A stretch of 64,000 nucleotides of DNA from Spirochaetota bacterium (GTDB lineage Bacteria > Spirochaetota > UBA4802 > UBA5550): positions 1-64,000 of the forward strand of contig JALOTL010000001.1 of assembly GCA_025457915.1 (NCBI GenBank). The letters run 5' to 3'. The notes beneath the pieces are model-generated. The model was not told the DNA's origin. It saw only the letters and a list, made by a program, of their open reading frames with translations, and searched no databases. The position numbers were made by a program, and so were the translations under genes. Of the stretch, positions 51,081 through 57,025 are shown piece after piece; position 1 is the stretch's first letter, and every line of letters begins with the position of its first letter.

Positions 51081-52145
51081 ATGAAACAGCTTCTTAAATT
51101 CTTTGCGAAATCTTTCCTTCTGGTGGTCATTTGCTTCGGACCGCTTGCCGCTTATAATATTATAATCGACAGGTATGTTATATTCAGCAAGGACCTCACG
51201 GGCCATAAAATTTCACCGAACCAGCACTATATCAAGATAGACCACCTGCTGAAAAACAAAACAAGGTATGATTCATATATCTTCGGTTCTTCGAAAGTCG
51301 GGTACATGGACATGTCGCATATCCCTTACGGCAAGTGGTACAACATGTCCTATTCCAGGGGCGTTCCCAGGGACCACCTGGTTGATATTAAACTGATGCT
51401 GAAAGAAGGCGTCACGATAAAAAACATTCTCCTGGGAATCGACATGCTCTGCTACAAGGTGGGTCCGACGGACCACTGGGGGACGCCCCTCTGGAAGCCG
51501 TACCCCGAGGGTCTTTATGACAAGCTCGAGTTCTACCTGGGATACCTTTTTCTTAAGCCTAAAAGATGGATAGACATACATTCGAGCGATACTCAATTCT
51601 TTGATCATTACAATACGGGCAGGGTTATTGCCGTCAAGCTTGATGCCGATTTTTTGAAAAACCCGAATGTCGACCCGAATGAATTCAGGTACAAGTTCGC
51701 ATGGGTAGCGGAAGGCCACAATGAAGACATAGCCCTGAAGGACATTTCCGAAATAATCGAGTTGTGCAAAAAAAACAACATCGATCTCAAGATATTCATA
51801 AATCCGGAGCATCCGGTCAATTACATAGGGAACGGCGTCGATCAGTTCAACAAATTCAAAAAACGCCTTGTAGGCCTGGCGGATTACTGGGATTTCAGCG
51901 GCATAGACTCAATTTCAAAAAACAATTTTTATTTTTACGACACCCCCCACTACAGGCCGGTTGTAGGGAATATGATAATCAGCAGAATCTACGGCGTGAA
52001 GATACAGGGACTTGTAATTCCGGATGATTTCGGGTTCTTTGTCACCCCGAAAAATATTGATTATCGGATGACTGTCCTCAATCAGCAGCTGAAAACTATT
52101 GACTTAAAAAAATACGCTACACCGATGAAGGGATTCAATTTTTAA
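51081..52145 (+). CDS. SGNH-like membrane-anchored protein, copy 1 (MBOAT partner)
   Basis: A 354-residue protein with an N-terminal membrane anchor (about residues 9-28) and a large extracytoplasmic domain. SYIFGSSKVGYMDM looks like an SGNH block I (serine in GSS), and the C-terminal FYDTPHYRPVVGNMIISRIYG supplies a DxxHY block V with the aspartate and histidine. In AlgJ/DltD-type pairs such a protein moves the acyl group from the MBOAT protein to the polymer. Similar proteins in Leptospira belong to a DUF1574-like group (from memory). Its 3' end overlaps its paralogue by 11 bp. Confidence 0.75.
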   Translation: MKQLLKFFAKSFLLVVICFGPLAAYNIIIDRYVIFSKDLTGHKISPNQHYIKIDHLLKNKTRYDSYIFGSSKVGYMDMSHIPYGKWYNMSYSRGVPRDHLVDIKLMLKEGVTIKNILLGIDMLCYKVGPTDHWGTPLWKPYPEGLYDKLEFYLGYLFLKPKRWIDIHSSDTQFFDHYNTGRVIAVKLDADFLKNPNVDPNEFRYKFAWVAEGHNEDIALKDISEIIELCKKNNIDLKIFINPEHPVNYIGNGVDQFNKFKKRLVGLADYWDFSGIDSISKNNFYFYDTPHYRPVVGNMIISRIYGVKIQGLVIPDDFGFFVTPKNIDYRMTVLNQQLKTIDLKKYATPMKGFNF

Positions 52146-53172
52146 CCTGTCCCTTGAGTTTTCGTATATGGGCATCGATGTTGTCCGCGGTGACATAAAA
52201 TCCGAAATCGGCAGGCACGTTGATTGATTTCAAATTAAAAATCCTTGCCAGCATCATATCCCCGACCATGTTTCGATAATGCGACGTTTCATAATAATAT
52301 ATATTGTTCGTGGTGATGCTGTTTAGCCCGCTGAAGTCATAATAATCCGTAGCACCCGCCAGTCTTTTCTTGAACTGGTTGAATTCATCCATGTTCCAGT
52401 AAAGATAGGTGATTTTATTTACGGGGGTTATTATAACGGTGAATTTAATCCCGTTTTTACTGCATATCTTTTTCATCTCATAAATATCATCAACGCATTC
52501 ATCAATCTTCAGAACATTTTCTCCCATGATTGTGGGCTGCTTGAAAAAATCCGACTTTACATGACCCTCCGGATCGGCAATTATTTTGTCCTCCATATAA
52601 TAAGGAACATAAAGACCATAGTCAAACAGCCTGAACCTTCTGTCCAGGTGGCCATATCCGAAAAAATGCTGGACGTCTTCAGTTTCGGGAATGGCAAGAA
52701 GGAACCTGAGATAATAAAACAGCTTATCCGGGTACCCGTAGGGATATCTCCTGAACTCAAACTTTCTGCTGTGCGCCTTCTGGGTCAGCCTGAATGAAAC
52801 CTCGTCAATGACGATCATCACGTTTTTCAGCTTAATCCCCTTTGACAATAAAAACTGCAAATCCTCGCGCCAGATCCTCGGGAACGTAAGGGGCGTTGAA
52901 AAATTATAAAACCTGTATCCTGGAATCTTCGCGACATCCAGATAAAAGACCCGCGACGTGCCGAAAAGAAGCGAATCATACTTTTCCCGGTTTTCCAGAA
53001 GGTGTTCTATTTTAAAATAATTGAAATTTAGGTTCGTGATGTAATAGCAGTCGCTGTTTATTCTCTTCAGGTCGTTCCGCAGGACCGAATATTTATCGAG
53101 TATGATGTTGAAGGCCATGAGGCCGGCCAGCACTGCAAGAATAAAGATTATAATTTTTATCGCTCTGGTCAT
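52135..53172 (-). CDS. SGNH-like membrane-anchored protein, copy 2 (MBOAT partner)
   Basis: A 345-residue paralogue of the previous protein, on the opposite strand. It shares the overall plan and motifs: N-terminal anchor, YDSLLFGTSRVFYLDV in place of the GSS block, KRLAGATDYYDFSGLNSIT against KRLVGLADYWDFSGIDSIS, and YYETSHYRNMVGDMMLARIF as the C-terminal histidine block. The aspartate of DTPHY is a glutamate here (ETSHY). It lies 12 bp after the second MBOAT gene. The two SGNH genes converge and overlap by 11 bp. Confidence 0.75.
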   Translation of the reverse strand: MTRAIKIIIFILAVLAGLMAFNIILDKYSVLRNDLKRINSDCYYITNLNFNYFKIEHLLENREKYDSLLFGTSRVFYLDVAKIPGYRFYNFSTPLTFPRIWREDLQFLLSKGIKLKNVMIVIDEVSFRLTQKAHSRKFEFRRYPYGYPDKLFYYLRFLLAIPETEDVQHFFGYGHLDRRFRLFDYGLYVPYYMEDKIIADPEGHVKSDFFKQPTIMGENVLKIDECVDDIYEMKKICSKNGIKFTVIITPVNKITYLYWNMDEFNQFKKRLAGATDYYDFSGLNSITTNNIYYYETSHYRNMVGDMMLARIFNLKSINVPADFGFYVTADNIDAHIRKLKGQVKN

Positions 53173-53184
53173 ATTATTCCGGTT

Positions 53185-54642
53185 TTAAAATTGAAAGTAA
53201 ATGAATCCCTTCGAAATCCTGACTGAAAAAAACAATATCCACATGATGAAGACATAGCTCATGATCCAGCGTAACGGCGCAAACAACCCGTCTATGAATT
53301 TCTTGAAGCCGCTGTTTTTCATGTAAAGATGGATCATCTCCATCATTATTATCGACAGCACCAGGACCGACATTTCAAATCCGTTAAGGCCGAGATTCAG
53401 AACAATCGACGGTGTTCTCACCTGGGTTGTCACCCCTGTGGCAAGGTTCATGATTATATGGAAAGCGTCCTGGACCTTGTTGGCCCTGAAAAATATGAAA
53501 CTGAAATCTATCAGCAGAAAAACCATCACAACCTGCGCAAGGCCCCTGAGCCTCGGGAGCCTGTCTATTTTTATTAAAGACGCGGCCCTGTCCCTGGCTC
53601 CTGAAAAAATCTGTGAAAATATGTAATAGAATCCGTTGAGCGCGCCCCAGATGGCAAAGGTCCAGTTCGCTCCGTGCCAGAGTCCGCTCAGAAAATATGT
53701 CAGAAAAATATTCACATAGTGCCGAAATTTCGATGTCCTGTTTCCCCCGAGCGGTATATAGAGGTAATCCCTGAACCAGGTGGTAAGGGAGATGTGCCAT
53801 CTCCGCCAGAATTCCCTGACTGACCTGGAATAAAATGGCGTGTCGAAATTGTTCATCAGGTCTATGCCCAGGATTTTCGCCGCTCCTATCGCAGTGTCCG
53901 AATAGCCTGAAAAATCACAATAGAGCTGGATGGCAAAAAGAACAACGGCGACTATCATGGAAAGGCCGGTATATCCATGAGGATTGTCGAAGACCGAACT
54001 GACCAGTATCGCCGCCCTGTCCGCGATTACGGCCTTCTTGAAAATCCCGAACGCCATGAGCTTCACGCCCCCCATCAGCCGCTGGTAATCGAATTCCCCC
54101 TTACCGTGAAATTGCGGAATAAGGCTGCCGGCCCTGCCGATCGGTCCGGCAAGAAGCTGGGGGAAGAACGCCACGAAAAGAGCGTAGGTTATGATATTTC
54201 TTTCAGGGCCGATCTTGTCCCTGTAAACGTCTATCAGGTATCCAAGCGACATGAATGTGTAAAACGATATACCGATCGGCAGGATGAGACTGAATCTCGC
54301 GGCCTTTACGTCAAATCCCAGAATCACCGAAATCGAAGCTATCGAATCCGCGAAGAAATTCAAATATTTAAATACTAAAAGCACCGATAAGACAATCGTT
54401 ATGCCCGCGACAAGGTATGCCTTTTTCCTTCCGGGACTTTTTGCCGACCCGATAAGGATACCGAACACATAGCTCGCGGCCGTCGCGAAAAGAAGGAACC
54501 CGATCAGCTTGATATCGGCAAACATGTAAAAGAAGTAACTCGCTGCAAGAAGAAAAAAGGGTTTGAACTTCCTCGGGGCGAGGAAATAAAGGAGCACTGT
54601 TATCGGGAAAAAAATAAAAAAGGCCTTTGTTGTAAAAAGCAT
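53185..54642 (-). CDS. MBOAT family O-acyltransferase (AlgI-like), copy 2
   Basis: A 485-residue paralogue of the MBOAT protein at 49447-51072. It shares YCDFSGYSDTAIGAAKILGI, FWRRWHISLTTWFRDYLYIPLGG and FLSGLWHGANWTFAIW, including the catalytic histidine. It is shorter at the C terminus and lacks part of the last membrane region of copy 1. It precedes SGNH copy 2 by 12 bp. The window thus has two complete MBOAT-SGNH modules in mirror arrangement, probably giving two different acylations of the surface polymer. The 273 bp upstream, to ispD, hold no gene. Confidence 0.93.
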   Translation of the reverse strand: MLFTTKAFFIFFPITVLLYFLAPRKFKPFFLLAASYFFYMFADIKLIGFLLFATAASYVFGILIGSAKSPGRKKAYLVAGITIVLSVLLVFKYLNFFADSIASISVILGFDVKAARFSLILPIGISFYTFMSLGYLIDVYRDKIGPERNIITYALFVAFFPQLLAGPIGRAGSLIPQFHGKGEFDYQRLMGGVKLMAFGIFKKAVIADRAAILVSSVFDNPHGYTGLSMIVAVVLFAIQLYCDFSGYSDTAIGAAKILGIDLMNNFDTPFYSRSVREFWRRWHISLTTWFRDYLYIPLGGNRTSKFRHYVNIFLTYFLSGLWHGANWTFAIWGALNGFYYIFSQIFSGARDRAASLIKIDRLPRLRGLAQVVMVFLLIDFSFIFFRANKVQDAFHIIMNLATGVTTQVRTPSIVLNLGLNGFEMSVLVLSIIMMEMIHLYMKNSGFKKFIDGLFAPLRWIMSYVFIMWILFFSVRISKGFIYFQF

Positions 54643-54915: not shown

Positions 54916-55608
54916 ATGGAAATGGGTAAAAATTACGCTGTTATTCTTGCCGGGGGCAGCGGCCTGAGGGCGGGGTCGGCGGTTCCCAAGCAATTCGTGA
55001 ATCTTTCAAAAAAACCGGTAATTCTCTGGTCAATAGACGCATTTGACCGCATTAAAGAAATTAATAAGATAATAATCGTATCGCATAAGGATTTCATTCC
55101 GTGGATTGAAAAACGTATTAAAAGAAAAAAAACCAGAAAATCATTTATCATAATTCCCGGCGGGCCGACACGCCAGGAATCATCTCTGAACGCCGTAAAA
55201 TCCATGGAATTCCGCGATGACGATATTCTGATTTTTCATGACGCTGCCAGGCCCTTCGTCAGCCGCCGGCTCATTATTGAAACCCTGAACGCGGCAAAAA
55301 TTTACGGCGCATCCGCAGCATACATCCCGTTGACCGATACGGTCGCGGAGATCAGCGGCCTGGATGTAAAATCCATACCGCAAAGGGAAAAATTATTCAG
55401 GGCCCAGACCCCCCAGGCCTTCAGGCATGAAATAATAAAAAAAGCCCACGGGATCGCGTCATCCGGCTTAAAGACGGCCACCGATGATGTAGCCCTGGTT
55501 CTCAACGCAGGTTATAAAATCAGGATGGTCTCCGGGGACCCGGCCAATATTAAAATCACGACTGCCGAAGATTTCCTCTACGCAAAAATCCTCATCAGGA
55601 AAATGTAG
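54916..55608 (+). CDS. ispD: 2-C-methyl-D-erythritol 4-phosphate cytidylyltransferase
   Basis: A 230-residue enzyme of the non-mevalonate isoprenoid pathway. Motifs: AVILAGGSGLRAGSAVPKQF for CTP binding, HDAARPFVSRRLI, TDDVALVL and SGDPANIKITTAEDF. The sequence is unusually lysine- and isoleucine-rich. Some IspD-like proteins near polysaccharide genes make CDP-ribitol (TarI), but the downstream context here does not suggest that. The ribosome binding site is weak. It lies next to the chorismate synthase-like gene. Confidence 0.88.
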   Translation: MEMGKNYAVILAGGSGLRAGSAVPKQFVNLSKKPVILWSIDAFDRIKEINKIIIVSHKDFIPWIEKRIKRKKTRKSFIIIPGGPTRQESSLNAVKSMEFRDDDILIFHDAARPFVSRRLIIETLNAAKIYGASAAYIPLTDTVAEISGLDVKSIPQREKLFRAQTPQAFRHEIIKKAHGIASSGLKTATDDVALVLNAGYKIRMVSGDPANIKITTAEDFLYAKILIRKM

Positions 55609-55696
55609 CTGGCATTGTTTCCACGTTTAAAAACTTGACTTTATCCCGCCAGGTAAATTATGAGTTCAATCTACATCTTTTTTAAAGGAGCCGCAT

Positions 55697-57025
55697 ATGA
55701 CAGGATGCACTTTGGGCAAAATCTTTCAGATAACCGTTGCCGGAGGATCTTATCAGGAGGGCCTTGCCACTCATATACAGGGCGTGCCTTCAGGAATCCA
55801 CATTGATGAAGAAAAAATATATTTCGACCTGCTCCAGAGAAAGCCCGGCCAGGGCGAACTTTCATCGCCCAGGCGTGAACCAGATATACCGGTTGTGTAT
55901 TCCGGCGTAAATTCAGCCGACACCATGACCGGTTTCAATAACGAAGGGTACACAAACGGAACGCCCCTAGTGATTCTCATCCCGAACCTTGACAGGCACT
56001 TCGAGCATATTGAACAGTACAGGGTCACGAACAGGACCCCACGACCGGGCCATGCTTCTTACGCGTCCTATCAGAAATACGGGCAGTGGGACGATTCTAT
56101 CGGCGCCGGCATTTTCAGCGGGAGATATACATCGACCATAGTGGCCGCAGGGGCCATCGCGAAAAAAATACTGTCCGACCACGGCATCAGCATATTCTCG
56201 TATGTAAAGGAAGCCGCAGGCATCAGCATGCCGGAAATGGACCCGGCCGAGATCGCGGCCAGGGTAAAAATGTTCAAGGAGTTCAGGAGGGACAACGACC
56301 CGGTTCATACGCTCGTTTATAAAGAAAAGAGGATCAAGCCGGGGATGAGGTTTCTTGAAAAAATGTCGGTCCTGGCCGGGATCGAGAAAATGGTTCCCGA
56401 CATAAAAAGAAATCCCCTCACCGAAAAGGAGATGAAGTCCCTCGAGGAAAAAGGCCTTCACCCGGTTCTGAACTGTCCCCACCTTGAAAGCGCAAGGGCG
56501 ATGTACGATAAGATAATCGCGATAAGGGACGCCGGGGATTCAAGCGGCGGGGTGGTCGAGGTGGTCGCGCGGGGAGTTCCTGCCGGCATCGGCGAACCCG
56601 TTTTCAGCAAGCTGGACGGCGAGCTGGGGCGTCTCATGAGCATCGGCACGGTGAAATCCGTCGAGATCGGCGCAGGATTGAAAGTGAAGGACATGACTGG
56701 AAGCGAATGCAACGACCAGATGTACATGAAAAACAACAAAGTCGCTTTCACGGGCAATAACAGCGGCGGCATAACAGGCGGCCTGACTACCGGCCAGGAT
56801 ATCGTCGTCCGCCTTGCCATCAAACCGACCCCGACCATAGCCAAACCGCAAAAAACCATAGACAAGGTCTCCATGACCGACGCGGAGCTTGCCGCCGTGA
56901 CGAGGCGCGACCCGACCATCGTATCAAGGGTCTGGCCGGTCGCCGAAGCCATGACGGCAGTAATCCTGCTTGACCAGTTTATAATCAACCTTGCATACCA
57001 GGGCATGAGGGAGGTATATTCCTAG
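55697..57025 (+). CDS. aroC: Divergent chorismate synthase-like protein
   Basis: A 442-residue protein with the chorismate synthase fold throughout: IQGVPSGIHI, QRKPGQGELSSPRREPD, NRTPRPGHASYASYQKYG (His119 kept), VAAGAIAKKIL, NSGGITGGLTTGQDIVVRLA and DPTIVSRVWPVAEAM. Canonical enzymes begin with GESHG, whose histidine donates a proton to FMN; here the gap-free counterpart is GGSYQ (residues 16-20), so Tyr19 replaces that histidine. The RGGGRSSARET loop is IGAGIFSGRYTST, and GRHDP is TRRDP. It is also longer than the usual 360-390 residues. Either an altered mechanism or another reaction is possible. GGAG precedes the ATG by eight bases. Confidence 0.8.
   Translation: MTGCTLGKIFQITVAGGSYQEGLATHIQGVPSGIHIDEEKIYFDLLQRKPGQGELSSPRREPDIPVVYSGVNSADTMTGFNNEGYTNGTPLVILIPNLDRHFEHIEQYRVTNRTPRPGHASYASYQKYGQWDDSIGAGIFSGRYTSTIVAAGAIAKKILSDHGISIFSYVKEAAGISMPEMDPAEIAARVKMFKEFRRDNDPVHTLVYKEKRIKPGMRFLEKMSVLAGIEKMVPDIKRNPLTEKEMKSLEEKGLHPVLNCPHLESARAMYDKIIAIRDAGDSSGGVVEVVARGVPAGIGEPVFSKLDGELGRLMSIGTVKSVEIGAGLKVKDMTGSECNDQMYMKNNKVAFTGNNSGGITGGLTTGQDIVVRLAIKPTPTIAKPQKTIDKVSMTDAELAAVTRRDPTIVSRVWPVAEAMTAVILLDQFIINLAYQGMREVYS

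Follow-up and report, generated by a model that had tools for sequence, protein, structure and literature searches.

Introduction

Chorismate synthase (AroC) is a flavoenzyme that catalyses the final step shared by the routes to the aromatic amino acids, in a reaction with no net redox change; it has been proposed as a drug target, and the two histidines of its active site are called invariant. The question raised by the locus described here, a gene in a window of 64,000 nucleotides (the whole stretch of DNA that was analysed) from a member of the Spirochaetota, is whether a protein in which the first of these histidines has become tyrosine is still a chorismate synthase, or is a paralogue that carries out a different reaction. 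We know of no second family of chorismate synthase. Our reading, to which we give a probability of about 0.82, is that the gene encodes the sole, functional chorismate synthase of the organism and that it belongs to a distinct lineage, termed here AroC-Y. AroC-Y is a genuine and strongly conserved natural form of the known enzyme, in which the function is very probably unchanged. A new reaction is not favoured on present evidence; genomes that carry AroC-Y beside a standard AroC leave room for specialisation.

The window gene and its predicted structure

The reading frame opens with ATG, has AAAGGAG 5′ of its start, and lies directly downstream of ispD, as had been predicted. The features referred to below are as follows.

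54916–55608, + strand: ispD, the upstream neighbour (PF01128, 172 bits)
55684–55690, + strand: AAAGGAG, a Shine-Dalgarno-like sequence
55697–57025, + strand: aroC-Y, an AroC homologue without the first active-site histidine (442 aa; PF01264 and TIGR00033)
55742–55756, + strand: GGSYQ motif, residues 16–20; the Tyr19 codon (55751–55753) is at the position of His17 (fungal numbering)
55997–56008, + strand: His101 and His104 (of DRHFEHI), which the clade conserves and which are candidates for a substitute proton donor
56042–56053, + strand: RPGH (R116, H119), the retained second catalytic histidine, proton donor to FMN N1 according to PMC3509576
56102–56131, + strand: GAGIFSGRYT loop, residues 136–145, with Ser141 and Arg143 retained
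56228–56476, + strand: AroC-Y-specific insert, some 75 residues long (approximately residues 178–260), helical in the model; boundaries approximate
56900–56914, + strand: TRRDP, residues 402–406, with R403 and the active-site base D405 retained and His replaced by Arg at 404

Further upstream (51081–54642) are two related proteins of about 350 aa, one with a sub-threshold match to DUF1574, beside an MBOAT acyltransferase, and this group looks like a polysaccharide O-acetylation set.

Membership of the family is clear from profile searches, in which the protein scored 318 bits against PF01264 (cut-off 27; residues 10–428) and 320.8 bits against TIGR00033 (aroC; cut-off 212.2), with NF003793 just below its cut-off (320.7 against 321); all of its relatives with solved structures are chorismate synthases. 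The replacement of GESHG by G16-G17-S18-Y19-Q20 in a gap-free alignment, which the original prediction had proposed, was borne out, and the placement of Tyr19 is secure because the family pattern QEGLxxxIQGVPxG follows directly downstream of GGSYQ. The same is true of the elements said to be kept, namely H119, the NN(S/A)GG...GG loop and the C-terminal segment. Residue correspondence was set with an E. coli AroC sequence, and the key positions were confirmed on an alignment made up solely of the window protein and collected loci. Two further motifs had been described as altered, and they do read differently (GAGIFSGRYT for the RGGGRSSARET loop and TRRDP for GRHDP), but neither is as unusual as was thought. 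The loop is largely ordinary: Ser141 and Arg143 are invariant in both kinds of AroC, and F140, S141, G142 and R143 are all found in the GHFSGRxT of short standard AroCs from the same order and family, which weakens the loop as evidence for a new mechanism. In TRRDP the invariant R and D are kept, and the histidine position (404) is serine in standard AroCs of the Gram-positive type.

An AlphaFold2 model of the window protein, built on a 75-sequence alignment that took in standard AroCs, reached a pLDDT of 91.9 and a pTM of 0.93, and replaced an earlier model from 19 close sequences (pLDDT 67). It matched every chorismate synthase structure that was found, with Z scores of 28.9–41.8; these included 7rca (Z 41.8) and 1qxo, in which FMN and EPSP are bound (Z 37.9, rmsd 2.9 over 357 residues). 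The best unrelated structure reached Z 3.0, and matches of this kind (HMG-CoA reductase and others, Z about 3 or less) were rejected as background. The predicted fold is that of chorismate synthase.

AroC-Y as a clade

AroC-Y, present in about ten bacterial phyla, is a branch of AroC whose members always have tyrosine in place of one of the two ‘invariant’ catalytic histidines. It seems to have gone unremarked, for a search of open-access papers found no described AroC that lacks this histidine. Further members were collected by a contig scan with the patterns IPN[LM]DRH and [DE]LL[QL]RKPG, which are drawn from other conserved stretches and do not select for GGSYQ, yet favour the AroC-Y clade; 80 loci were listed out of 283 candidates. 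Among these 80 listed loci, the hosts as recorded are Spirochaetota, Lentisphaerota, Planctomycetota, Verrucomicrobiota, Hydrogenedentota, Armatimonadota/Hebobacteria, Fibrobacterota, Bacteroidota, Myxococcota and others, the genomes sampled being mostly metagenome-assembled. In four cases (L084, L101, L121 and L131) the records are titled Paceibacterota, Bacillota, Deltaproteobacteria and Marinifilum, respectively, where mis-binning or mis-titling is possible. About 20 genomes in the sample, assigned to the Spirochaetota by record title, contain relatives that are 57–82% identical to the window gene; one of these genomes (G020) has two copies (L009:1501-2823 and L032:1508-2830) that are 79% and 74% identical to that of the window.

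Across the window gene and the 80 listed loci, GGSYQ followed by E, D or S is found in 81 of 81, as is H119, and TRRDP in 79; one Spirochaetota copy outside this set (L016) reads GASYQ. All AroC-Y sequences fall on one side of a single branch, with an SH-aLRT support of 100 in a tree of 83 rows and support of 100/100 in a more careful tree (52 rows, columns filled below 80% excluded). GGSYQ is accordingly the marker of one fully supported clade, which settles a check that the original prediction had proposed. Within the window's own family some relatives carry AroC-Y and others a standard AroC, either short (about 330 aa) or at the C-terminal end of a frame of about 530–590 aa, and the gene has therefore been exchanged or replaced. 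The long frames, seen in the standard AroCs of the same order (L019, L021-L025, L027-L029, L031, L033-L036 and L038), have some 180–225 residues before AroC and are possibly fusions with another domain, which might be shikimate kinase.

Which histidine was lost

The lost histidine had been assumed to be the one that protonates FMN, and this proved incorrect. That role belongs to the second histidine, the RP(G/S)H histidine, which is His110 in the Streptococcus pneumoniae enzyme (PMC3509576); its replacement by alanine in Neurospora crassa lowers activity 20-fold (PMC3509576). The first histidine is instead close to the phosphate of EPSP and may give the leaving group its proton (PMC7144000), and a modelling study named His17 together with two arginines as possible acids around the phosphate (PMC12697075). 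Judged from the alignment, the histidine lost in AroC-Y is the one on the EPSP-phosphate side, and the FMN proton donor is retained as H119.

Alanine and asparagine variants of the active-site aspartate lose activity 300- to 600-fold (PMC3509576), and in the Paracoccidioides enzyme (PbCS) EPSP is bound by R46, R103, R129, R354 and R362 (PMC11633415), to which the arginines of AroC-Y were matched by motif position. The window protein has the aspartate (D405) as well as the EPSP-binding arginines and the serines. Over 75 sequences, standard AroCs included, S18, R48, R116, H119, S141, R143, R403 and D405 are invariant; R411 is invariant in AroC-Y and throughout the class I standard AroCs, and class II has alanine at this position. 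S18 and S141 correspond to serines 16 and 127, which we take to have roles in the enzyme. Every residue other than the first histidine that has been assigned to catalysis or EPSP binding is, as far as can be read from these positions, retained in AroC-Y.

The change to tyrosine is accompanied by others. Four acidic residues of standard AroCs are replaced throughout AroC-Y (E17G, D28Q, D121S and E144Y), and H404R, G402T, T57S, Q20, W413, K331 and the insert of about 75 residues likewise set AroC-Y, in which they are fixed, apart from standard AroCs. The co-changes at the four acidic positions and at 404, with the insert, indicate what would be a rebuilt pocket. The order of events is suggested by the closest sister of the clade, a lone Spirochaetota protein (G056, L018:530-1705, + strand; SH-aLRT 99, and 100/100 in the careful tree) which is the only AroC match found in its genome and which looks like an evolutionary intermediate. 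This protein reads GESYG, and thus has tyrosine in place of the first histidine; it also shares TRRDP, A137 and H104 with AroC-Y and is encoded directly downstream of the end of an aroA on the same contig. In contrast to AroC-Y, it retains E17, G20, D28 and E144, has E at 121, carries a private insert after GESYG and is without the mid-protein insert. Since Tyr19 and Arg404 are present alongside the acidic residues, the His-to-Tyr and His-to-Arg changes probably came first, which suggests that the acidic residues at 17, 28, 121 and 144 were lost after the tyrosine arose. Sampling of the GESYG type ended with this protein, its family being represented by one genome.

Proposed mechanism

AroC-Y would bind reduced FMN and EPSP as other chorismate synthases do. 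H119 would protonate FMN at N1, and D405, acting through water, would prime N5 of FMN to accept the pro-R hydrogen of C6, with cleavage of the C3–O bond preceding that of C6–H as in the standard chemistry; this part of the mechanism is proposed because its residues are retained. On the phosphate side, Tyr19 and the conserved arginines R59, R143, R403 and perhaps R404 would attend the leaving 3-phosphate in place of His17. We regard the chance that Tyr19 and the arginines substitute for His17 in this way as about even. A relocated histidine may instead reach the EPSP phosphate and leave the mechanism the same in kind, the candidates being His104 and/or His101 in the DRHFEHI segment just before RPGH. 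H104 is found in 81 of 81 and H101 in 79 of 81 AroC-Y sequences, both being absent or variable in standard AroCs, and the GESYG sister protein also has histidine at 104; however, the segment adjoins RPGH in the sequence and not the phosphate-side loop, and we consider this solution rather unlikely. What likelihood is left beside these two goes to departure of the phosphate with no need for an acid.

Sole copy and pathway context

The remaining alternatives concern the reaction itself. A standard aroC elsewhere in the genome, which would be expected if AroC-Y were a neofunctionalised paralogue and which the original prediction advised looking for, is absent: no PF01264 gene other than aroC-Y is present in the window genome (96.4% complete), which favours the first of the two possibilities offered, that this is the sole AroC of the organism and works with an altered active site. 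The genome also encodes AroA (409 bits), AroB, AroE, two chorismate-binding enzymes of the TrpE/PabB type and a prephenate dehydratase. With one or two exceptions, AroC-Y is also the sole type detected in the approximately 20 Spirochaetota that bear it, many of them 90–99% complete; a possible exception is G093, which may carry a standard AroC as well.

In a further 43 genomes, mostly from other phyla, AroC-Y is found alone in 24, including three whose records give a single-contig chromosome (CP070816, CP070790 and CP070654), and together with a standard AroC in 19, where one standard copy is a fragment of 75 residues. Chorismate-using enzymes occur in all 43, as do matches to EPSP synthase, 39 of the latter above the cut-off. 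Five of the genomes studied (G046, G056, G399, G421 and G422) have EPSP synthase, AroC and chorismate users and no match to PF01761 (3-dehydroquinate synthase), and perhaps have an archaeal-type early pathway. An EPSP synthase gene lies no more than 2.5 kb upstream of AroC-Y on the same strand, often 20–150 bp away, at 33 of the 80 listed loci (of 283), and is the neighbour that recurs across phyla. The ispD gene adjoins AroC-Y in some close relatives only, and its linkage was rejected as a functional clue.

Where both types coexist, the single strong EPSP synthase gene adjoins AroC-Y and not the standard AroC in several genomes. In two genomes of this kind the standard AroC is preceded by a gene that reads as shikimate kinase, so both AroCs may serve the pathway, perhaps with a division of labour. 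At one locus (L110, contig C55 of G410) EPSP synthase, a phosphoglycerate-mutase-like gene, the standard AroC, a toxin–antitoxin-like pair and AroC-Y stand in a row, and the dual state there is therefore not due to contamination. It is conceivable, and in our view improbable, that AroC-Y in dual genomes converts EPSP by a reaction, or to a product, of its own (for example, another regioisomer or a dedicated chorismate pool) and is bifunctional where it is the sole copy, the rebuilt phosphate pocket then being an adaptation and not neutral. The stronger form, in which AroC-Y is a paralogue that has taken up a new reaction, with EPSP or a related enolpyruvyl phosphate as its substrate, and chorismate comes from another source, could draw on the standard AroC alongside it in 19 of the 43 genomes and on the clade-wide replacement of one histidine and four acidic residues. 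We hold it to be very unlikely: AroC-Y is the sole AroC in the window genome and in 24 others, all with chorismate-using enzymes, its other assigned catalytic residues are retained and it is linked to EPSP synthase. Inactivity, decay or a sequencing artefact, which the loss of a residue described as invariant might imply, can be dismissed: the motif recurs in 81 loci from about ten phyla, independent genomes encode it with different synonymous codons, a dN/dS of about 0.05 (rough only, dS being saturated) points to purifying selection, and the window genome has no other AroC. AroC-Y is very probably a working chorismate synthase and not a new-reaction paralogue, because it is the sole type amid the pathway genes in the window genome and in nearly all Spirochaetota that bear it, and at many loci adjoins EPSP synthase.

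Comparison with known chorismate synthases

With the class I enzymes (those of E. coli, fungi and most bacteria) AroC-Y has in common the fold (Z 30–42), the arginines that contact EPSP and FMN, H119, S18, S141, D405 and the NxxGG...GG loop, as well as a place in the pathway after EPSP synthase and often the same chromosomal order. It differs in GGSYQ for GESHG (His to Tyr, Glu to Gly and Gly to Gln), in D28Q, D121S and E144Y, in TRRDP for GRHDP and in the insert of about 75 aa, so that its length is 435–442 aa against approximately 330–390 aa in class I. The class II enzymes of the Gram-positive type (L162-L170; Mycobacterium tuberculosis 2o12) share with AroC-Y the fold, the R and D of the RxD motif and both serines, but have GESHG, and RSD for RHD; they are found alongside AroC-Y in several genomes of Hydrogenedentota and Planctomycetota. 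If a lineage does live on AroC-Y alone, the phosphate-side histidine is dispensable given other changes, and these natural variants could be used to test whether His17 or the arginines protonate the leaving phosphate. Motif annotation and inhibitor design that rely on the GESHG of the known classes miss a lineage that extends across about ten bacterial phyla.
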